The notes under the pieces are model-generated. The model was given only the letters and a program-made list of their open reading frames with translations, ran no database searches and was not told the origin of the DNA. Of a DNA stretch of 26,544 bases, positions 13,421 through 25,989 are shown piece by piece. Position numbers and translations under genes: made by a program. The stretch spans positions 1 through 26,544 of the IMG/VR virus record IMGVR_UViG_3300046011_005911, one strand, 5' to 3'. This DNA comes from a virus. Each line of letters begins with the position of its first letter. The first letter of the stretch is position 1.

Positions 13421-14484
13421 TGTCGAGCAAACGAAAACCCGAGGGGCGCTTCCCGCTAGACCGTCCTCCAGGCGGCATGGTCGTGGAACCTCCGATGACA
13501 ATGGACGAGGAGACCGCAAATATGGACCCAAGTGACTTGAGCAGAAACAATGCAATGGCCCAAGCGGGCGATGACGTGCTGCCGCCGGTGAGGGACGCCG
13601 AGGGCAACCCGCTGCCGCTGGACGACTTGAGCGCGCCGGAAGACGCCATGGTTGACCCAACGCCCGCCGAAGTGCGCCGCGCTACGGTTAGCGTCCCAGC
13701 CAAGGGCGTGCATTTTAACTTTGAGCCGTTCCAAAGGATCGCGCAACTGCATGCTGCGGGGCAAACGCAGGAAGCCATCGCCATGCGCGATGCTCTCGAC
13801 CCGCAGTCACGCTACGTCTACGACAACATCAAGAACATGAAGAAGGTGCCAGCGGCTGAGGCCGCGCGGCTTGCTGACGAGTTCCGGCAAATGCAGGACC
13901 GGCAGGCGATGCAGAGCGCGAGCAAGGCAGCGGACCCCGCCAAAGAGCGCGAGCAGGCGCAGCAGGCGGCCCGCGTGCAGAGCGTCCTCGGCATCATGGA
14001 CAAATACACCGCCGAGGACAGTGACCTGGACAAGCTGGTCGGCCCAGCGGCGGGCAGCTTTGTGGCCAACGAATGGGACAAGTGGAACAATCAGGATCGC
14101 TACGCCAAGCGGTTTGAGCTGAGTTTCACGACCAAGACTGAGGTGCTGGAGGCGGCCAAATACGTTAAGCCGCTATCCAACGACGAGCGCAAGTTCCTCG
14201 AGGAGATGTTCCCGCGCCGCGACGATCCGCCGCAGGTCTGGCGGGAATACTTCAAGCGCACGCGCGAGATTCTTTCCCAAGGCCTGCCACAACAACCACA
14301 AGCGCAGGGCGCCGCACCGGCCGCCGCCGCACCGCAACCTTCCCAGCCTCCTCCAAACCTCAAACCAACCCGCATTGATCCAGTGACCGGCCAACCAATG
14401 ACGCTTATTCAAAACCAGCAGGGCAAGTGGGTCTACCGCCTCGCCCCGCAGCAGCCACAGCAGTCGAATGCCGCCGGCCGCTAA
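13420..14484 (+). CDS. Hypothetical internal virion protein
   Basis: A 354-residue hydrophilic protein. The N-terminal 60 residues are Pro/Asp-rich and probably disordered. The middle (about 90-275) is helical with charged repeats such as EAARLADEFRQMQDRQAMQSASK and FELSFTTKTEVLEAAKYV. The C-terminal 75 residues are a Gln/Pro/Ala linker (LPQQPQAQGAAPAAAAPQPSQ) followed by RIDPVTGQPMTLIQNQQGKW. No enzyme motif was found. It overlaps the giant downstream gene by 17 bases, and the pair resembles the internal-core protein couples of T7-like phages. Function is inferred from context only. Confidence 0.65.
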   Translation: MSSKRKPEGRFPLDRPPGGMVVEPPMTMDEETANMDPSDLSRNNAMAQAGDDVLPPVRDAEGNPLPLDDLSAPEDAMVDPTPAEVRRATVSVPAKGVHFNFEPFQRIAQLHAAGQTQEAIAMRDALDPQSRYVYDNIKNMKKVPAAEAARLADEFRQMQDRQAMQSASKAADPAKEREQAQQAARVQSVLGIMDKYTAEDSDLDKLVGPAAGSFVANEWDKWNNQDRYAKRFELSFTTKTEVLEAAKYVKPLSNDERKFLEEMFPRRDDPPQVWREYFKRTREILSQGLPQQPQAQGAAPAAAAPQPSQPPPNLKPTRIDPVTGQPMTLIQNQQGKWVYRLAPQQPQQSNAAGR

Positions 14485-17400
14485 AGAAGAATACACGCCG
14501 GAGGAGCTGGATGCGCTGGAGGCGCAGCAAGCGCCGCGTCCGGTCTACGACGTGATCTCGGGCGGCGTGGGCGCAGCCATGAGTTATTACGACGGGCCGC
14601 AGGAGACCAAAGCGGAATACACGCCGGAGGAGTTGGATGTGCGCGATGCGCTGTATGGCGCGCCGGAGCTGACGCCCGAGGAGTTGGACCAGCGGGCGGT
14701 GGACGCCAAGTATGATGCTCGCGTCATTCTGTCGCCGGAGCAGCTCAAGGAGGCGGACGAGCTGGAGGTCAAGCTGACCGAAGAGGGCAAGCGCCCCGGC
14801 AAGTGGCAGATGGCCAAGGCCATCGGCGGCGGCATTCTGCAGAGCGTGGCCGACTGGAACATGGCGCTAGACAAGAGCGGCAACCTAGCTGCGGTCGTTG
14901 AGAACGCGCTCATCAAGACCGGCGCCCTTGACCGTGACTACAAGCGCGTGCCGATGCTGGAGGCGGCGCTGCAGGCTCCGGCTTCGGCCAAGGCGGGCGT
15001 CCAGGGCACGGCACTGAACACGACCGAGACTGTCTTGGCACTTAACAATTTGGCGATGGGCAAGCCGCGTTATCGCGTGCAGGAGACCGGCGAGTTTGTC
15101 TACTCCCCGCTCGGCGGCGTGGCTCCGCTTACCCAGATGGCTGGCGAAGGAAAGACCCTGGTGCCAGTGACTGATGCGGACCTAGACGAGCACCGCTACC
15201 AGCTTTACGCCAAGGAAAACGCAATCCGCAGCACCTACCTTGACATCATGGATGAGAAGCTGCTGGGCGTGAAACCTAACCAGAGCTTCACACTGCCTGC
15301 AGAAATCCTACTGGCACCGGAGAACTTGGCGCCGGGCTTTGCCGCGACCAGAGTGACCGGCGCAGCGCGTCTCGGAAAACTTTTCAGCGCCAAAACGCTG
15401 GGTGCGGCTGAGGCGGCGGCGGGCGGCAGCGCCAACATTATCGACAAGGGTGCGGACGTGTTCACGCGCGCCGTGCAGAAGATGACCTTTGGCGCACTGG
15501 ACCGAAAGACGCAATCAAAGATCGCCAAAACCGCAGCCTATGGCGGTGGCGCCGGTGCCGTGGCGACCGTCATGTCTGGAGCGCCGGAGGAGGCGCGCAA
15601 CACAGCGCTGGCGCTGATGAGCCTCTACCCGATGTACAAGATGGGTTCCGGTGTGCTTCGCCGCGTCGAGGGCGCGACCGGCACGGCCAAGATGATCATG
15701 CGCGAGTCGGCTGATGCGACCAACGGTATGGACGATGTGGCGCGGGCGGCCGTGGCCAACAATGCGGCGGTGCCGCGGGAGATCCGCGAGGCGTTGGTCA
15801 ACCCAAGCAAGTTCGTCCCGCTGGAATCGACACCGGCGCGGATCGCCAAAAACGAGGCATTTTCCCCGCGCGTGCGCCAAGTGGCAGCGCGCCTAGCCAA
15901 CCCGCTGATCGTGCAGGCTTCGCGCACCGCCGGTGCCGTGGGGCGTGGCGCAGTGGTTGGACCGCTGGTCAACATCCCCTTTGCCGAAGCCTACCGCGAG
16001 ATGGGCGACGAGCAGACCGCAGAGGGCATCTACGGTGCCGGCGTGCTGTTTGGTGCGGGCGGCGGATTGGTTGGTCGTGTGGCCGGTGCCCGCGGGCGCC
16101 GGCGCGATGCGGCGGTGAGCGACATCGGGCGCATGCTGGTGGACATTCAGCAGAACAATGCGGGCGAGCTAGGACGTGCTGCGCCGGATCGGGCGGCCGA
16201 GGTCTACTACAGCATGAAGGAACCCGGCCGCATGCTGACCGACGTGGAGCTGGCGGGCGGCGACATCGACGCGCTGATGCGCAATACAAAATTTGAAGAC
16301 CTCGCTGGCATGGCGGCCATGCAGGGATTCTACCGCGACTCGGTCGATTTCATCCCGCTCAACGGCCTTGACTACAACGCCAACGTCAGCGCGCTAGGTG
16401 GCAATGGCACGGCGGGATACTTCCTGCATGCACCGGAAGGTCAGCGCGCCCGCCTCTTCCTTAACGCCGACGCCCGCCGCACCGACGTGGCGCCGCATGA
16501 ATACGGTCACGCCCTGCTGGCCAGCGCCGCCATGTCGCCAGAGATGAAAAACTCGGCCCGCGCCAGCATCAACCAGCGCTACGGTCCCGAGAAGCTGGAC
16601 GCCATGGCACGCGAGTATGCCCGCAATGTGGTCGCTGGGCGCAATGCGCGGGAGTTCCCCGGACAGAAAATGGACGTGAGCGAGGCTGAGGTAGACAGCA
16701 TCCTCAATGAGCTGACAGAAAATGGTTTGGCCCGCGGTGACGCCGACCGCCTTGACTGGCTGCGTGATGAAGTGTTCGCCGAAGAGCACCGTGCGGCCGG
16801 TATCGACTACGCCCAGATCCGCCGCGGCATCCCTGCGGGATTCAATCCGGTTGGCTTTGCTGAAAACGTGCTCGGTGCCAATGCTAGGGCGCTCGCAGCG
16901 GCAGGCGCGCCCATCGACCCGCAGACCGGCAAGCTGCAGGCGCCTCCCGACAGACTTTTCAAGGATAACCCAATCCTCGCCGCCGACCCAGTCATGCGCC
17001 GCAACATCCGGCAGTATGTCAGCGCCTACCAGCAGTGGCTCAACGACCCAGCGCATGAGGCTCCGGTCGGCGCCCCGCTGTCGCGCAGCGGCAACCCGAA
17101 TGATCTGAAGAACAACCCAAACGTCACGTTCCGCGACTACGGCAACGGCCGCCTTGAGAACGAGCTGGCCTTCATCGACGAGAGCGGCAACGTCAAGTTG
17201 AGGGATAAAAAGAATGATTCCGACCGCGCCAAGTTCATTCGCGCCCGCCAGCAGCAGGTGCGCGAGATGATCGACCGCGGCACCAAGGAGCCGAACGACC
17301 CGACCTTTGGCGTCCGCTTCCGCGACGGTCAGCGCATTGTGGCCGGCAAGACCTTGCCGCCGCGCTTTGACCTCACGCGATTCCCTACGCCTCTCAAGCA

Positions 17401-20400
17401 ACTCGCCCGCCGCATGGAGTCAATTGGCAACGCCGGAGAGACCATGCAGGTGCGCTACTTTGCATGGGGCAAATCCAGGGACTTATTCAAGCAAGGCAAC
17501 GTGCGTGACGCGCGGGCCATCAACCGCGAGGTGATGTTCGTTGAGTGGCAAGCGACCAAGGACGGCAACATCAACGCCTTCGTTGTCGATCTCACGCAGT
17601 TCCGCAACCGCGCCATGAAGGCCATCGCCCAGCGCGACCCCTCGCTGGCCGAGATCAATTGGGACTTCAAGCAGCTCGAGGCCGACCTCCGCCGCGTGTT
17701 GGACAACCACGCCAACGGACGCGCCGGATCAGACGGCATCGGACCGGATCGTCGCAACGCCGTCAACGCCTTGCTCGGCATTGGCACCAAGGCCAACCGC
17801 GCGGCCAACCCGCTGACCGGACTGGGCGGCAAGGGTTCCGCACTCAAGACGCTGCGCCTTGATGCCTTTGATGATATCGCTGGCACCGGCCGCCAAGGCT
17901 TCAGCTTTGATTACCAAAAGGCCAACGGCAACTTCATGCCCGATGCCCCGGCTCCGCGACCAGACCTAGACACCGACCTGCCGGTGCGCATGCCCCAGCA
18001 GATCCCGCGCCCGGCTCAGGGGATGCCGGATGTGGCGGCTTCTGGTAGGGGTGATGGGATGCCTAAGACGCCTCGCCGTTACGTCCCAATGGAGCAGTTC
18101 ATTAAGGAGGCTGGCGATGAACTTGGCGCAGTCTTGGCCAACGCTTACAACGACATGGACATCAACGAGGACAGGAACGCCCTTGTTGGCTTCGTTGACA
18201 CGCGCAACTCCATGTATCGCCAGCGCATTCCGGTGAAGGAGTTCTTCGACTGGCTGCACTCGGATGAGCCGATGCGCGGCCTAGTCTTTGATAGCGAAAA
18301 CAAGCCGGCCACGGCTGGCGAGGGCGCAAGCTACACGCGCGAAGGCTACGAGGCACTGCTCAACCGTCTGCGGGACATCAGCCTTCGCAAGCCGAAGAAA
18401 TCAGCCGCCCAGCGTGGGCAGGCGATGCCGGATGTCACAATCACTCCAGACGAGGCCCGCCGCCAAGGCTTGGTCGGCCCAGTGTATCACGGCTCGCCAG
18501 ACTTTAAGGGGCGCAAGTTTGATCCCAAGTATCGCGCCCGAAGCTCTGGCCTGTCGCGCGGCGGGGTTTCATTTACTGAGGATGTCGCCTCCGCTGACAG
18601 CTATGCTGGCGCGGGCGTTGACTCGGCGCAGGCTGCCGTGGACGCTGCCAATGACGTGATGCGTGACCTTGGCGCCCGCATGGAGGCTGGCCTCAAGCTG
18701 CGGGAGTTTGCCGATGTCAGCGAGGTTCCAGAGTTTAACGTGCGCTATGTGGACGACATGGATGAGCTGGCCAGCTATTTCAACGACCTCTCCAAGCGCA
18801 TCCCCAAAGACCTTGGCGCCCGCCTGCGTGACGCTGCCAAGGCGATCAACGAGCCAGCCAATCCGGTAGTCGTAGAGGCTTACCTGCGCAATCCCAAGGA
18901 GATGATGATCGACGGCAAGCGGCTGCTGGTGGCCGAGAATCCTGACGACATCTTTGTGTCTGCGGCACGGCCTCCGCAAGATGCGCCATCAGCCGCCCCG
19001 CGCGCCCAAGCCATGCCGGACTCCCTCAAGTCCGTTCCCACCGACCAACTCCAACGCCAATACGAGGAGAACCAAGGCTACCTCGGGCTGTCCACCCTGG
19101 GCATGCGTGAGGGCCGTCCGGTGCGTGGCGGTGCGGCGCAGACCCGCGAGCTGCTCCGGCGCAACGAGGCGATCAGCGCAGAGCTGCAGCGCCGCGGCGT
19201 GCGGGAGGAAGATCCGCAGCTGCAGCGGGCGTTGCAGAGGCGTGGGCAGGCGATGCCGGATGCTGCTCCCGCAGGCGCCCCGCCTTTCTACATGAAGAGC
19301 GCCCAAGTGCTGGACGCCAAGATCCAAGGCAAGGCCGCCACAGCAGACCAAGTGCGCGCCATCCTCAAGAACCCGCAGAACGGCATCAAGGCCGAGGAGC
19401 TGAAGTGGACCGGCATTGAGCAAGCCGTGGAGCGCATCGCCAAGGAGAACGGCGGGAAGGTGCCCAAGGAGGCGCTGCTGCGGTATCTGCAGGAGGATGG
19501 GGCGGTGAGGTTGGAGGAGGTTGTGCTGCCGGAAGATTCAAACATTACGCAAGCAGCGAATGATCCAGATTTTGACCCAGCCATGTATCGCGATGACCGC
19601 GCAAAGTTTGGTCAATACCAATTGCCGGGAGGAGCCAACTATCGTGAAGTCGTGTTAGCAATGCCGGCTAAAGCTGCGCTACGAAAAGAACTCAAAGAAG
19701 TCATTAATCAGTTTAACACGGCAGACGATCCCAATTTGCGCTCACAGCTTGAACAGCAGATGCGACAACTTGAAGTGAGAATGGCTGAAATGCCAGATGA
19801 CTACGCCTCGTCTCACTTCCAAGGGGTTCCCAACTACGTTGCCCACATGCGCCTCAACGAGCGCACTGATGCCGCGGGTAAACCGGGGCTGTTTCTGGAG
19901 GAGATCCAGAGTGACCGGCATCAGGCTGGGCGGGTTGCAGGATATGTTGGTGAAGAAAAATATAAAGAACTTCCCGCTGGTTATACGTTTACGATTGAAA
20001 ATGGAATGTATTGGGTAAATGACCCAAACGGGGATCAATTTACATCCAGACAATACAGCGGTGAATCGGCAAAAAATGAGGCGATAAATAGACTGAACAC
20101 TGAGGCGAGGGGCACAACGCAGTCACCAATCCCCGACGCCCCCTTCCGCAAAGACTGGCCCGTCCAGATGTTCAAGCGCGCCCTCGCTGATGCCGTTGGA
20201 AGCGGCAAGGAGTGGATTGGGTGGACGACTGGGGAGACGCAGGCGGCGCGGTATGATTTGAGCCAGCACTTTGACCGGATTCGCGTTCATAAAATTGAAA
20301 GCCCAGCTGATCAGGCGGGATGGCACGTTGAAGCATCTGGGAATGATAGCCTGCGGCGCGTTGCAAAAACCGACCAAGAGCTTGCCGATACAATAGGCAA

Positions 20401-20839
20401 AGAGCTTGCCGATAAGGCAATCAAGCAGATAACGACCCAGGTTGAGAAAGACGCCAAGCTGACGCAAAAGCAACGCGCAGCAACAACGGCCGACCCATAC
20501 GAGGCAGACTTTACAGGAGTTGATTTGCGCGTTGGCGGCGAAGGCATGAAGGGCTTCTACGACCAGATCTTGCCCAAGGAGATCAGCAAGTATGTGAAGC
20601 AGTGGGGTGCGCAGGTGGAGAAGGGCGAGATTTCGCAGCGCGTTGATGCCACCGAAGATGATGTCGCTGCCCTTCGCCGCGTTGGCATGCGCGTTCCGAA
20701 GACCATTCCCAAAACTGTCGAAACCCCCATCTGGCGCGTCAACATCACCCCGCAGATGCGCGAGGGGATCAAGAAGGCTGGGCAGGCGTTGTTTGTTGGC
20801 GGGATGGCCGCCGTGGTCGCCGAGCAGGAACAACAATAG
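14468..20839 (+). CDS. Giant polyvalent virion protein: metallopeptidase, ADP-ribosyltransferase-like and polyvalent modules
   Basis: A 2123-residue multidomain protein ending the late operon, probably carried in the particle and ejected with DNA. Three TPEELD repeats open it (10-15, 52-57, 69-74). Gly/Ala-rich, possibly membrane-active stretches lie near 340-420 and 495-550. HEYGH at 677-681 is a zinc-metallopeptidase motif, with DEVFAEEH (767-774) a plausible third-ligand region. After M1157 the protein is built of modules each opened by (A)MPD: M1157, M1186, M1320, M1516, M1596. The 1320-1516 module starts VYHGS (Tyr1340-His1341-Gly1342) and continues GVSFTED...SYAG (F1369, Y1379), like ADP-ribosyltransferases of polyvalent proteins. 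The last module has IKAEELKWTGIEQ, QLPGGANYREVVLAMP, FLEEIQSDRHQ, WIGWTTGETQAARYDLS (1916 on) and ends ITPQMREGIKKAGQALF, all familiar from large polyvalent phage and MGE proteins. Catalytic activity is untested inference. Confidence 0.8.
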   Translation: MPPAAKEEYTPEELDALEAQQAPRPVYDVISGGVGAAMSYYDGPQETKAEYTPEELDVRDALYGAPELTPEELDQRAVDAKYDARVILSPEQLKEADELEVKLTEEGKRPGKWQMAKAIGGGILQSVADWNMALDKSGNLAAVVENALIKTGALDRDYKRVPMLEAALQAPASAKAGVQGTALNTTETVLALNNLAMGKPRYRVQETGEFVYSPLGGVAPLTQMAGEGKTLVPVTDADLDEHRYQLYAKENAIRSTYLDIMDEKLLGVKPNQSFTLPAEILLAPENLAPGFAATRVTGAARLGKLFSAKTLGAAEAAAGGSANIIDKGADVFTRAVQKMTFGALDRKTQSKIAKTAAYGGGAGAVATVMSGAPEEARNTALALMSLYPMYKMGSGVLRRVEGATGTAKMIMRESADATNGMDDVARAAVANNAAVPREIREALVNPSKFVPLESTPARIAKNEAFSPRVRQVAARLANPLIVQASRTAGAVGRGAVVGPLVNIPFAEAYREMGDEQTAEGIYGAGVLFGAGGGLVGRVAGARGRRRDAAVSDIGRMLVDIQQNNAGELGRAAPDRAAEVYYSMKEPGRMLTDVELAGGDIDALMRNTKFEDLAGMAAMQGFYRDSVDFIPLNGLDYNANVSALGGNGTAGYFLHAPEGQRARLFLNADARRTDVAPHEYGHALLASAAMSPEMKNSARASINQRYGPEKLDAMAREYARNVVAGRNAREFPGQKMDVSEAEVDSILNELTENGLARGDADRLDWLRDEVFAEEHRAAGIDYAQIRRGIPAGFNPVGFAENVLGANARALAAAGAPIDPQTGKLQAPPDRLFKDNPILAADPVMRRNIRQYVSAYQQWLNDPAHEAPVGAPLSRSGNPNDLKNNPNVTFRDYGNGRLENELAFIDESGNVKLRDKKNDSDRAKFIRARQQQVREMIDRGTKEPNDPTFGVRFRDGQRIVAGKTLPPRFDLTRFPTPLKQLARRMESIGNAGETMQVRYFAWGKSRDLFKQGNVRDARAINREVMFVEWQATKDGNINAFVVDLTQFRNRAMKAIAQRDPSLAEINWDFKQLEADLRRVLDNHANGRAGSDGIGPDRRNAVNALLGIGTKANRAANPLTGLGGKGSALKTLRLDAFDDIAGTGRQGFSFDYQKANGNFMPDAPAPRPDLDTDLPVRMPQQIPRPAQGMPDVAASGRGDGMPKTPRRYVPMEQFIKEAGDELGAVLANAYNDMDINEDRNALVGFVDTRNSMYRQRIPVKEFFDWLHSDEPMRGLVFDSENKPATAGEGASYTREGYEALLNRLRDISLRKPKKSAAQRGQAMPDVTITPDEARRQGLVGPVYHGSPDFKGRKFDPKYRARSSGLSRGGVSFTEDVASADSYAGAGVDSAQAAVDAANDVMRDLGARMEAGLKLREFADVSEVPEFNVRYVDDMDELASYFNDLSKRIPKDLGARLRDAAKAINEPANPVVVEAYLRNPKEMMIDGKRLLVAENPDDIFVSAARPPQDAPSAAPRAQAMPDSLKSVPTDQLQRQYEENQGYLGLSTLGMREGRPVRGGAAQTRELLRRNEAISAELQRRGVREEDPQLQRALQRRGQAMPDAAPAGAPPFYMKSAQVLDAKIQGKAATADQVRAILKNPQNGIKAEELKWTGIEQAVERIAKENGGKVPKEALLRYLQEDGAVRLEEVVLPEDSNITQAANDPDFDPAMYRDDRAKFGQYQLPGGANYREVVLAMPAKAALRKELKEVINQFNTADDPNLRSQLEQQMRQLEVRMAEMPDDYASSHFQGVPNYVAHMRLNERTDAAGKPGLFLEEIQSDRHQAGRVAGYVGEEKYKELPAGYTFTIENGMYWVNDPNGDQFTSRQYSGESAKNEAINRLNTEARGTTQSPIPDAPFRKDWPVQMFKRALADAVGSGKEWIGWTTGETQAARYDLSQHFDRIRVHKIESPADQAGWHVEASGNDSLRRVAKTDQELADTIGKELADKAIKQITTQVEKDAKLTQKQRAATTADPYEADFTGVDLRVGGEGMKGFYDQILPKEISKYVKQWGAQVEKGEISQRVDATEDDVAALRRVGMRVPKTIPKTVETPIWRVNITPQMREGIKKAGQALFVGGMAAVVAEQEQQ
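18412..18434 (+). repeat. 23-bp direct repeat at a module junction (copy 1)
   Basis: This 23-bp stretch is repeated exactly at 19240-19262, 828 bp downstream and in the same reading frame. It encodes the RGQAMPD linker that opens the ADP-ribosyltransferase-like module of the giant protein. Identity at DNA level across synonymous positions suggests recent duplication or recombination at the linker. Confidence 0.75.
19240..19262 (+). repeat. 23-bp direct repeat at a module junction (copy 2)
   Basis: Exact second copy of the sequence at 18412-18434, in the same frame. It encodes the RGQAMPD linker that opens the C-terminal polyvalent module. A shorter related copy (GGATGCCGGATGT) lies at 18021-18033. 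Confidence 0.75.
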
Positions 20840-20890: not shown

Positions 20891-22030
20891 TCATTTGTGC
20901 CAAACATCCCGGAGATCCACCTCGCGGTCGAAGACAGCGTAGAAACGTGCCGTGGTCGAAGGCTCGGAATGCCCGAGCATGTGCTGCACCAAGCTGATCC
21001 TGCCGGTCTCATTCAGCACATCGCTGCCCGCCTGCTTGCGCAGCTCGTAGGCCGCCGCCCTCCGGTCCGGCAGAAACTCGCGCACCCACATGTTGAAGTT
21101 GCGCTCCATGAATTTCACCCGCATGCCCTTGGTGCGCCCCGGCACCATGAAGTCGTCCGCGGCGAGCAGCTCTGGCACCATCCACGCCGGCACCGCCATG
21201 ACCCGCCCGCGCTTGGCGCCGGTCTTGAGTGTCAGCCCTTCGTCCTCCCGCTCAATCAGCACCAACACATGCCGGTCGCCGCGGTCTTCGATCCAGCCCT
21301 TGCGACAGTAGGCGACCTCCTTGGGCGTCATGCCCAAGTAGCGGGTCAGCAGGAATGCCCGCCGCGTGGCGCCGCCGATTGCCTTGCTGGAGTTATCCAT
21401 CTTGCCAAGTATCTCCGGCGGAATTCGCACAAAGGTCGAGACCGGCGCCTTCATGCCCTTGGTCATGGCGGCAAACTCTTTGATGCAGTCCGGCAGCGGG
21501 AAGCCGCGCCAGTCCATCGGATTGCAGAACACGCTGCGCGCCCCGGAAAGCACCGAGCGCATCGTGTAGGCGCTGCCCTGGTAGGTCGTGCGGTATTTGG
21601 CCGCGGTGTCCGGCGAGATGACCGTCAGCGGCCGCGCCTGCACCCGCTCGTTGTCCTGCCCGAGGACGAGCCGCAGCATGCGCAGGAGGCGATTGACATT
21701 GGTCTGCTTCGTGTCAATCTGCGCGACCTTCAAGTAATGATCGACCGCTTCGCCAACCGTTTTGTGAACCGCCCGCTGGCCGTGCGCCCGCAGGGCCGCC
21801 AAGCCGTCCCGGTAGGCATCAGTGATCATGCCCTTGGCCTTCTCTTTGGCCATGACGAGGTCGCGCAGCCCGGTCGAGATGCGGATGCGCTTGGTCGTCT
21901 GCGGGTGGCGGAATTCCAGCTGCCAGCGCGGCGAGTCGGCAGTGCGGTAGAGCTTGCCGGCCATGCCGCCCACCTTGATGTCGTGCGTGTCCATGCGACA
22001 GACTCTGCCACCGGAAAGCATGTCTGGCAA
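20891..22030 (-). CDS. int: Tyrosine recombinase / phage integrase
   Basis: A 379-codon frame encoding a site-specific recombinase that should integrate the phage at an att site. An N-terminal arm-binding-like domain (about 25-85) is followed by a helical core-binding domain (90-190) and the catalytic domain (200-379). Catalytic residues visible are the beta-hairpin Lys (K269 or K273 in LKTGAKRGRV), Arg331 in AYELRKQAG, His354 in HMLGHSEPS and Tyr364 in ARFYA. Two positions are unusual. The first Arg of the tetrad, normally in GLRxxE, is Thr235 in LGMTPKE, and the His of HxxR is Tyr328. ATG 22030 has no Shine-Dalgarno and overlaps an inverted repeat; ATG 21994 (MDTHDIKVGG) is an equally good start. 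The gene converges on the late operon and abuts the candidate att region. Confidence 0.85.
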   Translation of the reverse strand: MPDMLSGGRVCRMDTHDIKVGGMAGKLYRTADSPRWQLEFRHPQTTKRIRISTGLRDLVMAKEKAKGMITDAYRDGLAALRAHGQRAVHKTVGEAVDHYLKVAQIDTKQTNVNRLLRMLRLVLGQDNERVQARPLTVISPDTAAKYRTTYQGSAYTMRSVLSGARSVFCNPMDWRGFPLPDCIKEFAAMTKGMKAPVSTFVRIPPEILGKMDNSSKAIGGATRRAFLLTRYLGMTPKEVAYCRKGWIEDRGDRHVLVLIEREDEGLTLKTGAKRGRVMAVPAWMVPELLAADDFMVPGRTKGMRVKFMERNFNMWVREFLPDRRAAAYELRKQAGSDVLNETGRISLVQHMLGHSEPSTTARFYAVFDREVDLRDVWHK

Positions 22031-24292: not shown

Positions 24293-24507
24293 GCTACGAA
24301 CTCGGAGACCCGGACGACCGCTGCTGCGACGAGGGCCGCGAGGCGGACATCGAGGAGCGTGACGCAGAGGACTGCAGCAAGGCTTACGGCGTGCCGCATG
24401 ATCCCTACGCGCATCGCACGCCGGAGGAAGATGCCGAGTGGGAAGCGGATAAGCGCTTGGACTACGAGGCGGATCGGATCTGCGGGCATCACTGGGGGAA
24501 TTGTTAG
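24289..24507 (+). CDS. Acidic hypothetical early protein (72 aa)
   Basis: Very acidic protein starting MSYELGDPDDRCCDEGREAD, with DAEDCSKAYGVPHDPYAHRT and EEDAEWEADKRLDYEADRICGHHW. Cys and His near both ends (CC, CGHHWGNC) suggest possible metal binding; the strong negative charge could mimic DNA, as in some anti-restriction proteins, but no family is recognised. ATG 24289 overlaps the previous stop and follows GAGGAGG (24277-24283). Confidence 0.62.
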   Translation: MSYELGDPDDRCCDEGREADIEERDAEDCSKAYGVPHDPYAHRTPEEDAEWEADKRLDYEADRICGHHWGNC

Positions 24508-24509
24508 CC

Positions 24510-24884
24510 ATGCAAACACGTCATCCTTGCTGGGCAATTTGGAAGGGCATGAAGCAACGCTGCGACAATCCTAATCGCAAAGACTTCGCCTATTACGGTG
24601 GTCGAGGAATTGGCTACGACCCCAAGTGGTCAACGCTTGCTGGGTTCCTTCAAGACATGGGCGAGCGCCCATCTTTCAGCCACACGCTGGATCGGATTGA
24701 TGTCAACGCTGGGTACAGCAAGGCGAATTGCCGCTGGGCCACGCGCAAAGAGCAAGCACGCAACCAGCGCAACAACATCATCGTAGACGGCCGCCTCCTC
24801 GTTGAGCTGGCCGAAGAACAAAACGTCAGTTTGCGCGCTATGTATTCGCGCCATTACCGCGGAGGAAAACAATGTGGATACTAA
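24510..24884 (+). CDS. YGGRGI/CRWAT phage protein (AP2/HNH-associated type)
   Basis: Starting at ATG 24510 (after GGGGGA, 24493-24498) it encodes 124 residues with a familiar order: WAIWKGMKQRCDNPNR, YYGGRGIGYDPKW, FLQDMGERP, LDRIDVNAGYS, NCRWATRKEQARNQRNN. This pattern occurs in many small phage proteins labelled as HNH or AP2-domain homing-endonuclease relatives; the CRWAT...QxxN segment probably contacts DNA. No complete HNH triad is visible, so nuclease activity is uncertain. The C-terminal VELAEEQNVSLRAMYSRHYRG looks like a small HTH. Its last 13 bases overlap the following methyltransferase frames. Confidence 0.65.
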   Translation: MQTRHPCWAIWKGMKQRCDNPNRKDFAYYGGRGIGYDPKWSTLAGFLQDMGERPSFSHTLDRIDVNAGYSKANCRWATRKEQARNQRNNIIVDGRLLVELAEEQNVSLRAMYSRHYRGGKQCGY

Positions 24885-25972
24885 CACCATCAATCACGTC
24901 AGCCTTTGCAGCGGCTACGGGGGCATCGACCTCGGCCTCAAGCGAGCAATTGGCGAGCGCCTGCGCACAGTCGCTTTTGTGGAGGTCGAGTGCTTCGCCG
25001 TCTGCAACTTGGCAGCGAAGGCTGAAGCAAAACTCTTGGACAACGCACCTATCTGGAGCGATCTGCGAACCTTCCCTTGGGGAAAGTTTCACGGACTGGT
25101 GGACATCCTCTCTGGCGGCTACCCGTGCCAGCCATTCAGCGCAGCCGGCAAGCGACTCGGCGCCGAAGACCCAAGACACCTCTGGCCCTACATATCAGCC
25201 GGAATTGCTGCAATGCGACCAAGTGTCTGTTTCTTTGAAAACGTCGAGGGACATATCAGCCTTGGGCTTCCCGACGTGCTGCAAGACTTGGCAGGAATGG
25301 GTTACCGAACGACGTGGTGCGTGGCGTCAGCGAGTGAATGCGGCGCGCCTCACCAGCGGAAGCGGGTCTTCATCTTGGCCCACGATACGAGCCTCGGAAT
25401 ACAAGGACGTTGGCCCAGTTGGATCGAAGAGTCACGACCACATGCTGGGCAAGCACTACCTCTGCGCGGTGGTGACGCAGGATGCGGCCACGAATGGCCA
25501 AGCCGCCCCGGCGAGCAGCAGTTCGCTTGGGAGCCGCCAAGGGTTGTGGGCAACGCCGCGCAGTGCGATGGCGTCGATGCATCCAGAATATGGGGAGCAT
25601 TGGAACGAAAATCGCGGCGGCGAAAGTCTTGCGACACAAGCGTGGAAGCGGCAGCCGGAGCACTGGGGCACGCCAACAGCCCGCGACCACAAGAGCGGCC
25701 GAGGCAACGAGGAGCGGCAATACAAGGAGCTGACGCCGATGGTGGAGAGAACGCAGGCGGGGAAATTAAACCAGAATTGGGTTTGCTGCTTGATGGGAGT
25801 GCCGATGGGTTGGGTGGACCCAATGTGTCCGGTCTCAGTGATCAAGAACTGGCCGAGATTCGTCAGTGGATGGCTACGTCCACAAACCGCACCGATTCCC
25901 TGCGGCTCCTCGGCAACGGAGTTGTGCCGGCCACCGCAGAGCGGGCTTTCCGAGTTCTCGTTGGCGAGCTGA
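24872..25972 (+). CDS. Overlapping-frame protein with WPT repeats (methyltransferase companion)
   Basis: A 366-codon open frame running one base out of register through the whole methyltransferase gene. ATG 24872 lies at ideal distance from GGAGGA (24861-24866). Its second half does not look like chance: SLKTSRDISALG and TWQEWVTERRGAWRQR lead to three W-x-T elements (SSWPT at 169, LWATP at 226, HWGTP at 265), then TARDHKSGRG and LNQNWVCCLMGVPMGWVDP (299-317). I recognise these from phage cytosine methyltransferase-associated proteins, where the WPTP region and the LNPxWVExLMGxPxGW motif occur together. It could be a separate protein, or a target-recognition segment joined to the other frame by frameshifting. 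Low-complexity Ser/Ala in residues 1-110 suggests the N-terminus is unconstrained. Confidence 0.55.
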   Translation: MWILTPSITSAFAAATGASTSASSEQLASACAQSLLWRSSASPSATWQRRLKQNSWTTHLSGAICEPSLGESFTDWWTSSLAATRASHSAQPASDSAPKTQDTSGPTYQPELLQCDQVSVSLKTSRDISALGFPTCCKTWQEWVTERRGAWRQRVNAARLTSGSGSSSWPTIRASEYKDVGPVGSKSHDHMLGKHYLCAVVTQDAATNGQAAPASSSSLGSRQGLWATPRSAMASMHPEYGEHWNENRGGESLATQAWKRQPEHWGTPTARDHKSGRGNEERQYKELTPMVERTQAGKLNQNWVCCLMGVPMGWVDPMCPVSVIKNWPRFVSGWLRPQTAPIPCGSSATELCRPPQSGLSEFSLAS

Positions 25973-25989
25973 TGGAGGCAATCACATGA
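24874..25989 (+). CDS. C5 cytosine DNA methyltransferase
   Basis: A 371-residue cytosine-5 methyltransferase, transferring a methyl group from SAM to DNA. Motif I CSGYGGIDLGL (12-22), motif IV GGYPCQPFSAAGKR with catalytic Cys85, motif VI FENVEG (121-126), motif VIII QRKRVFI (161-167) and motif X LLGNGVVPATAERAF (345-359) are in order. The 170-340 segment (target recognition) is compositionally odd. It contains GALGHANSPRPQ and KPELGLLLDGSADGL, typical of related phage enzymes, but is overlapped by another frame. I chose GTG 24874, eight bases after GGAGG (24861-24865); an earlier TTG at 24802 lies within the previous gene. The stop overlaps the next gene (ATGA). Likely protects phage DNA from host restriction. 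Confidence 0.82.
   Translation: MDTNTINHVSLCSGYGGIDLGLKRAIGERLRTVAFVEVECFAVCNLAAKAEAKLLDNAPIWSDLRTFPWGKFHGLVDILSGGYPCQPFSAAGKRLGAEDPRHLWPYISAGIAAMRPSVCFFENVEGHISLGLPDVLQDLAGMGYRTTWCVASASECGAPHQRKRVFILAHDTSLGIQGRWPSWIEESRPHAGQALPLRGGDAGCGHEWPSRPGEQQFAWEPPRVVGNAAQCDGVDASRIWGALERKSRRRKSCDTSVEAAAGALGHANSPRPQERPRQRGAAIQGADADGGENAGGEIKPELGLLLDGSADGLGGPNVSGLSDQELAEIRQWMATSTNRTDSLRLLGNGVVPATAERAFRVLVGELMEAIT

Follow-up and report, generated by a model that had tools for sequence, protein, structure and literature searches.

At one end of the IMG/VR record analysed here, a virus sequence of 26,544 bases referred to below as the window, a gene for a C5-cytosine methyltransferase (frame F0) is overlapped by a second long frame on the same strand (frame F1). 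The question raised by this locus is whether F1 encodes a product and, if so, what that product contributes. To our knowledge, there are few proven cases of long overlaps on one strand in which selection acts on both products. Here, hundreds of relatives make it possible to separate which frame is selected where, and split and fused relatives provide natural controls. Comparison of these sequences makes it very probable that the polypeptides specified by the two overlapping frames form one C5-cytosine methyltransferase.

Layout and family matches of the two frames

Read as open reading frames, F0 is open throughout and encodes 371 amino acids, and F1 comprises 366 codons in phase +1 relative to F0 (Table 1). 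The ATG at 24872 and the GTG at 24874 are the predicted starts of F1 and F0. Among 38 window-family loci examined, the start region was located in 29 (the pattern missed 9), and 28 of these have the overlapping start codons; the exception, L044, has another F1 ATG slightly upstream.

Table 1. Features of the overlapping pair, with positions in the window.
Feature	Position	Strand	Basis
Shine-Dalgarno-like GGAGG	24861-24865	+	sequence
Overlapping start codons ATGTG (predicted starts)	F1 ATG 24872-24874; F0 GTG 24874-24876	+	sequence
F0, catalytic (alpha) polypeptide; C5-cytosine methyltransferase motifs I-VIII and X	24874..25989	+	PF00145, phrog_363
F1, +1-frame (beta) polypeptide; WPT cassettes and motif-IX-like segment	24872..25972	+	phrog_1008, conservation
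F0 motif I	24901-24924	+	sequence
F0 motif IV	25114-25149	+	sequence
F0 motif VI	25231-25251	+	sequence
F0 motif VIII	25342-25380	+	sequence
F1 cassette region: WPTI 25376, WATP 25547, WGTP 25664	25376..25765	+	profile tests, F0 openness, low F0 pLDDT
F1 motif-IX-like segment LNQNWVCCLMGVPMGW	25766-25813	+	positional match to single-ORF actinophage enzymes
F0 motif X, RLLGNGVVPATAERAF	25903-25950	+	constraint back in F0; helix 352-370 in F0 model

The initial annotation recognised C5-methyltransferase motifs in F0. In agreement with this, F0 matched PF00145 (4.5e-32; 112.2 bits for a cut-off of 22; profile positions 2-168 of 324), with a match that stops after about motif VIII, and motifs I, IV, VI, VIII and X, under their customary names, were located. 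F0 also matched phrog_363 (2.9e-54) and scored 83 bits with NCBIfam dcm, under the cut-off of 100.65. The +1 frame was likewise as described, open for 366 codons and containing WPT, WAT and WGT (residues 169, 226 and 265), TARDHKSGRG and LNQNWVCCLMGVPMGW. F1 matched PHROG 1008, 'DNA methyltransferase' (1.6e-12; 48.5 bits; F1 residues 78-317; profile positions 39-281 of 329) and is a member of a recognised family. A true overlapping pair, one of the options first proposed, is supported. Motif X of F0 weakly matched the end of the same profile (positions 293-320; 0.0019). The best value for the F1 profile against the PDB was 0.44, and a search for the window F1 on plasmids gave no match. The PADLOC models of the Druantia cytosine methylases DruM2 and DruM matched F0 (24883-25986; best 3.5e-34) and gave no match with F1.

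The end of an HNH endonuclease-like ORF (24501-24884; phrog_3377, 1.3e-39) lies within the first bases of the pair, and all three forward frames are thus inside open genes at 24872-24884. Elsewhere in the window, a 2123-aa ORF (14468-20839) partly matches phrog_7348, 'endolysin' (1.5e-9, residues 1772-1982), and an integrase-like gene is present on the minus strand (20891-22030; phrog_1, 1e-13), which suggests a temperate phage.

Nested, split and single-chain relatives

IMG/VR searches with F1 and F0 returned 23 and 33 loci, respectively. Forty-one loci were taken further, a set that includes the window sequence itself (L024), contig-end fragments, the near-identical L034 and L035, and two phage records. 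Both frames were open and the phase was +1 in all 41; stop codons in the F1 of relatives, which had been named as grounds for rejecting the overlap, were thus not encountered in this set. The F0/F1 pair is found in named phages, including N15 (gene 58), SEN4, Lc-Nu, BcepC6B and Acinetobacter phage ABMM1, among others. Both frames are annotated in Paenibacillus larvae phage Tadhana and Xanthomonas phage PhiXhv-28, and one CDS is annotated for gene 58 of N15. No report of this overlap was present among the literature matches listed, most subscription journals lying outside the coverage.

Scans with F1 alignments (the best 80 of 578, 537 and 123 relatives) provided 240 loci, some of them mutual copies. 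A methyltransferase was present in all 240, with F1 in phase +1 in 239 and a single ORF in the other, L276. Scans with the catalytic part of F0 only (best 80 each) provided 159 new loci; F1 was present in phase +1 in 158 of these and at +2 in L521, a result that covers one clade rather than all C5-methyltransferases since the seeds were genes carrying F1. The sequence of L521 (133-1952) looks like a partly duplicated tandem of the methyltransferase, with a +1 F1 for each copy. In L276, from a Klebsiella michiganensis contig (about 2160-3408), F0 continues in the F1 frame past motif VIII, the former F1 is cut short and the third frame holds the motif X end of F0; L276 has intact relatives and looks like an indel allele. 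F1 was in no case a free-standing gene (0 of 240 loci). L073, from a Porphyromonas phage (1429-2055), seemed to be one by its annotation, F1 being annotated as a hypothetical protein, yet an unannotated methyltransferase frame lies beneath it.

Seventy-seven loci were fetched. A single ORF contained both motif VIII and the motif-IX-like segment in 13 of the 77, and the segment was located in a second, +1 ORF in 16; 47 were left unclassified by the patterns and one was at +2. In mycobacteriophage Rita, motif VIII is followed in one ORF by LPTP units, an MMGWPxGW segment and motif X. LPTP units are also present in the +1 frame of this locus (L320, 1048-2217), upstream of the in-frame units, and look like the trace of a frame change. 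L365 is a single-ORF form without LPTP units. F1-like segments therefore occur in split and single-ORF actinophage enzymes, contrary to what the initial annotation regarded as a second sign against the overlap, namely F1 homologues confined to it. The position of LNQNWVCCLMGVPMGW is that of the in-frame segment between motifs VIII and X of the single-ORF enzymes. We take this segment to be motif IX by position and general consensus rather than by residue-level alignment.

These relatives bear on whether F1 might be a separate protein with a job of its own, such as modulating the methyltransferase, rather than the small domain of the enzyme. F1 is indeed an open frame distinct from F0, the start signals described below are its own, and F0, which carries motif X, could be imagined to work alone. 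However, the single-ORF homologues place the F1 segment between motifs VIII and X, which is the small-domain position, F1 of the split forms also bears motif X, and a methyltransferase accompanied F1 at each of the 240 loci. We consider a separate function for F1 improbable.

Openness and constraint in each frame

Differences between relatives were counted per F0 codon position, the first position of F0 being the wobble position of F1 (Table 2). In all three groups, position 3 was the most variable over motifs I-VIII and from motif X on, and position 1 in the 45 codons before motif X. The middle region was ambiguous by this approach, with position 3 highest in the window family and the A2-type and position 1 in the N15-type. 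In ten single-ORF actinophage genes used as controls, position 3 was highest in every region.

Table 2. Differences at F0 codon positions 1/2/3 by region. Values for the N15-type and A2-type are for the full F0; 14 of 140 and 31 of 79 loci, respectively, lacked the motif VIII or X pattern and set no regions.
Group	Motifs I-VIII	Middle	Last 45 codons before X	From X on
Window family	0.157/0.108/0.281	0.146/0.097/0.190	0.249/0.074/0.126	0.064/0.027/0.323
N15-type	0.161/0.129/0.407	0.283/0.154/0.257	0.206/0.126/0.181	0.236/0.249/0.400
A2-type	0.251/0.155/0.368	0.205/0.110/0.253	0.269/0.151/0.166	0.131/0.065/0.556

In a second approach, residues of one frame were compared between groups with shuffles preserving the other frame. 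HMM scores against the window family were high for the third-frame control as well in six of seven test loci (all but L057); these scores are confounded by shared ancestry, and the between-group tests were relied on instead. After motif VIII (20 loci per comparison), F1 exceeded F0-preserving shuffles in 95-100% of the loci, versus 10-15% for F0 with F1-preserving shuffles. Over the last 45 codons before motif X, the corresponding values were 88-100% for F1 and 0-16% for F0, but F0 reached 56-60% between the N15-type and the A2-type. In these same 45 codons, the third frame exceeded its own shuffles as well, in 12-80% of the loci, at lower scores (0.9-10.0 bits versus 12.5-37.1 bits for F1). 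We take this to be a by-product of the constraint on F1, and it weakens the control. Over motifs I-VIII, F0 won in 45-100% of the loci. For F1, three of six comparisons gave 60-90% over motifs IV-VIII, and the remaining values over motifs I-VIII were 35% at most; for 24901..25380 in comparisons involving the window family, the fraction was 0-15%, with one exception of 0.60 (motifs IV-VIII). From motif X on, F0 beat the shuffles in 25-80% and F1 in 0-30%. F1 residues over motifs I-IV were not conserved, and some 70 of them may be passive or untranslated.

Judged from these comparisons, the order of constraint is F0 over motifs I-VIII, F1 over the motif-IX-like segment and F0 over motif X, in agreement with the order of catalytic half, WPT segment and motif X first proposed. 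The WPT cassettes are under F1 constraint according to the profile tests, the codon-position test being ambiguous there, and F0 residues between motifs VIII and IX are mostly not conserved beyond what F1 forces. The initial annotation had both frames constrained over 25210-25830. This was borne out only in part: F1 residues are conserved across groups over about 25380-25890, and F0 is mainly kept open there. Equal constraint on the two frames was thus rejected in favour of a constrained frame that switches from F0 to F1 and back.

Openness of F0 was assessed between motifs VIII and IX at nested loci, defined by a recognised motif IX in F1 (9, 10 and 2 further loci of the three sets lacked it and were left out). 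F0 was open in 135 of 137 loci (61/62, 44/45 and 30/30), with 9 stops versus 620 expected, and motif X followed shortly in F0 in 127 (60, 37 and 30). In the split actinophage-type set, F0 was open in none of 20 loci, with 66 stops versus 70.9 expected (43 others lacked such a motif). In a slightly different set of 20 split loci, motif X was in F1 in 19, all of them with stops in F0; in L393, F1 lacked motif X and F0 was open.

At the other end of the overlap, F1 stops vanish at a 5' edge that depends on the type. In the window family the edge coincides roughly with the start of the gene; it precedes motif IV by about 40 codons in the N15-type (with a small residue after it) and by about 10 in the A5 type. 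A start codon with a strict Shine-Dalgarno sequence was enriched at this edge in F1 (30/79 versus 9% and 22/78 versus 8%), and showed no enrichment in the third frame (22% versus 26% and 4% versus 4%). The start position was not conserved across types. GAT codons at an F0 Asp that provide an F1 ATG were used at the candidate site (89/215) as elsewhere (2022/4820), giving no start signal, and a second candidate site gave 11/23 versus 203/552 (p 0.28).

Programmed frameshifting, with a move into F1 past motif VIII and a return to F0 ahead of motif X, would produce one hybrid enzyme and leave the F0-F1-F0 order of constraint. The single-ORF homologues share the order of parts of such a hybrid, and L276 is a natural F0-to-F1 join. 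This possibility, which the initial annotation raised, would nevertheless require two shifts per protein. The zero frame need not be kept open past a shift, yet F0 is open through the F1 part at nearly all nested loci; likewise, an open F1 ahead of the shift would not be required, but the frame is open from well before motif VIII and has start and Shine-Dalgarno signals. We regard frameshifting as quite improbable.

Openness of F1 was evaluated over an interval set by F0, from motif IV to 8 codons before motif X (or 40 codons before the end if motif X was unrecognised), against shuffles that keep the F0 protein and its codon pool. For 152 distinct loci (5 skipped, 2 duplicates), F1 was open in 144, with 13 stops versus 466 expected. 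The third frame contained 1898 stops versus 1840 expected and was open in no locus, as predicted by chance. Of the eight loci with F1 stops, five have them past the motif-IX-like segment; in L414 two stops lie close to motif IV, and the segment was not recognised in L453 and L528. For the window sequence, 500 synonymous shuffles gave a mean of 4.0 F1 stops and left F1 open in 0.4%. The interval was in that case the overlap of the two ORFs, for which zero stops in the native sequence hold by construction; such zero counts were not relied on.

Spurious long +1 frames are common in GC-rich DNA, and the GC content of the genes in the 41-locus set is 0.54-0.63 except in L057 and L058. That F1 is such a compositional artefact, with no product, is nevertheless scarcely credible, since codon-preserving shuffles left F1 open in about 4%, the frame is kept at low GC in Tadhana (gene GC 0.47) and ABMM1 (locus GC 0.42), and F1 residues are conserved over saturated distances (L057 and the between-group tests). 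A past frameshift or a gene in decay, read in two ways, has one allele of that appearance in L276 and is excluded for practical purposes by an arrangement intact in 239/240 and 158/159 loci.

Putative recognition cassettes, a predicted two-part enzyme and known systems

Cutting by pattern yielded 163 cassettes from 35 window-family loci (three pairs had the same string), which formed 69 clusters. Seventeen of 60 clusters had at least two different right neighbours, indicating that cassettes recombine. Two to eight cassette motifs per locus were found in 30 window-family loci. The cassettes are probably involved in target recognition.

In the structure model of the window F0 (mean pLDDT 58), pLDDT was below 50 at residues 187-321 and 333-347 and the helix at 352-370, corresponding to motif X, was better predicted; F0 opposite the cassettes is read as a linker. 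The model of the single-ORF enzyme L321 (mean pLDDT 64; 12 sequences) was similar to M.HhaI (Z 22.0, rmsd 3.5, 233 aligned, residues 2-384). Its motif-IX-like segment forms a strand (328-330) and a helix (332-338) ahead of the motif X helices, and residues 169-286, which include the LPTP units, had a pLDDT below 50. Searched against the PDB, the A3 profile gave an alignment covering the N-terminal part only.

The openness of both frames, the switch of constraint between them, the constant +1 phase, the enrichment of start and Shine-Dalgarno signals for F1 and the in-frame fusions together point to a two-polypeptide enzyme. F0 and F1 would be initiated separately from the overlapping frames. 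F0 would provide the large catalytic domain, comprising motifs I-VIII and then X, with the stretch from VIII to X acting as a linker set mostly by the other frame. F1 would provide the small domain, comprising the variable array of WPT(P) cassettes, probably for target recognition, followed by motif IX. By analogy with what is reported for M.EcoHK31I, F0 and F1 would associate into the active enzyme. We infer translation, association, methylation and the role of the cassettes in specificity from the comparisons described above.

A broader reading, which could equally prove right or wrong, is that a widespread family of phage enzymes has its catalytic and specificity halves in two frames of one stretch of DNA, that its recognition cassettes recombine as dual-frame modules, one swap changing recognition by F1 while the F0 linker only has to stay open, and that frame changes convert this family between nested, split and single-chain forms. 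If so, it would offer a direct view of a long same-strand overlapping gene pair arising and resolving. F1 is often unannotated or labelled 'DNA methyltransferase', and phage methylation may consequently be credited to only one half of its enzyme. Should the cassettes determine specificity, these phages would have exchangeable recognition modules with which to counter host restriction.

Among known enzymes, M.HhaI, M.HaeIII and the product of Rita gene 76 have the same parts in one chain, in the order I-VIII, variable region, IX and X, and need no second frame. The window differs from this single-chain layout, since the motif-IX-like segment is in F1 and the Pfam match of F0 ends after motif VIII. 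The multispecific methyltransferases of Bacillus phages are single chains with several recognition units between motifs VIII and IX; by this general description, they are alike in the location of the units and unlike in the single chain. M.AquI, in the description available, has motifs I-VIII in its alpha chain and IX-X in its beta chain, the division seen in the split actinophage relatives, in which F1 comprises the variable part, IX and X; unlike M.AquI, the window type keeps motif X in F0.

The closest layout is that of M.EcoHK31I, a two-polypeptide enzyme (YGGCCR). Its small subunit was reportedly shown by Lee and colleagues in 1995 to be specified by an alternate reading frame within the coding sequence of the large one. 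A portion of a published account assigns motifs I-VIII and X, as well as the predicted TRD, to the larger subunit and only motif IX to the smaller polypeptide (PMC3404938). The layout and the frame-specific constraint of the F0/F1 pair indicate the same motif split, with the second chain in an overlapping frame; the likeness is one of layout. As far as these partial descriptions go, the nested and split forms appear to match the M.EcoHK31I and M.AquI layouts. The predicted TRD of M.EcoHK31I is on the larger subunit in that account, whereas here F1 contains the variable cassettes and F0 is mostly free of constraint between motifs VIII and X. The pair is also phage-borne. The M.EcoHK31I layout was thus known; its occurrence with shuffled cassettes and a wide distribution among phages, gene 58 of N15 included, is added here.
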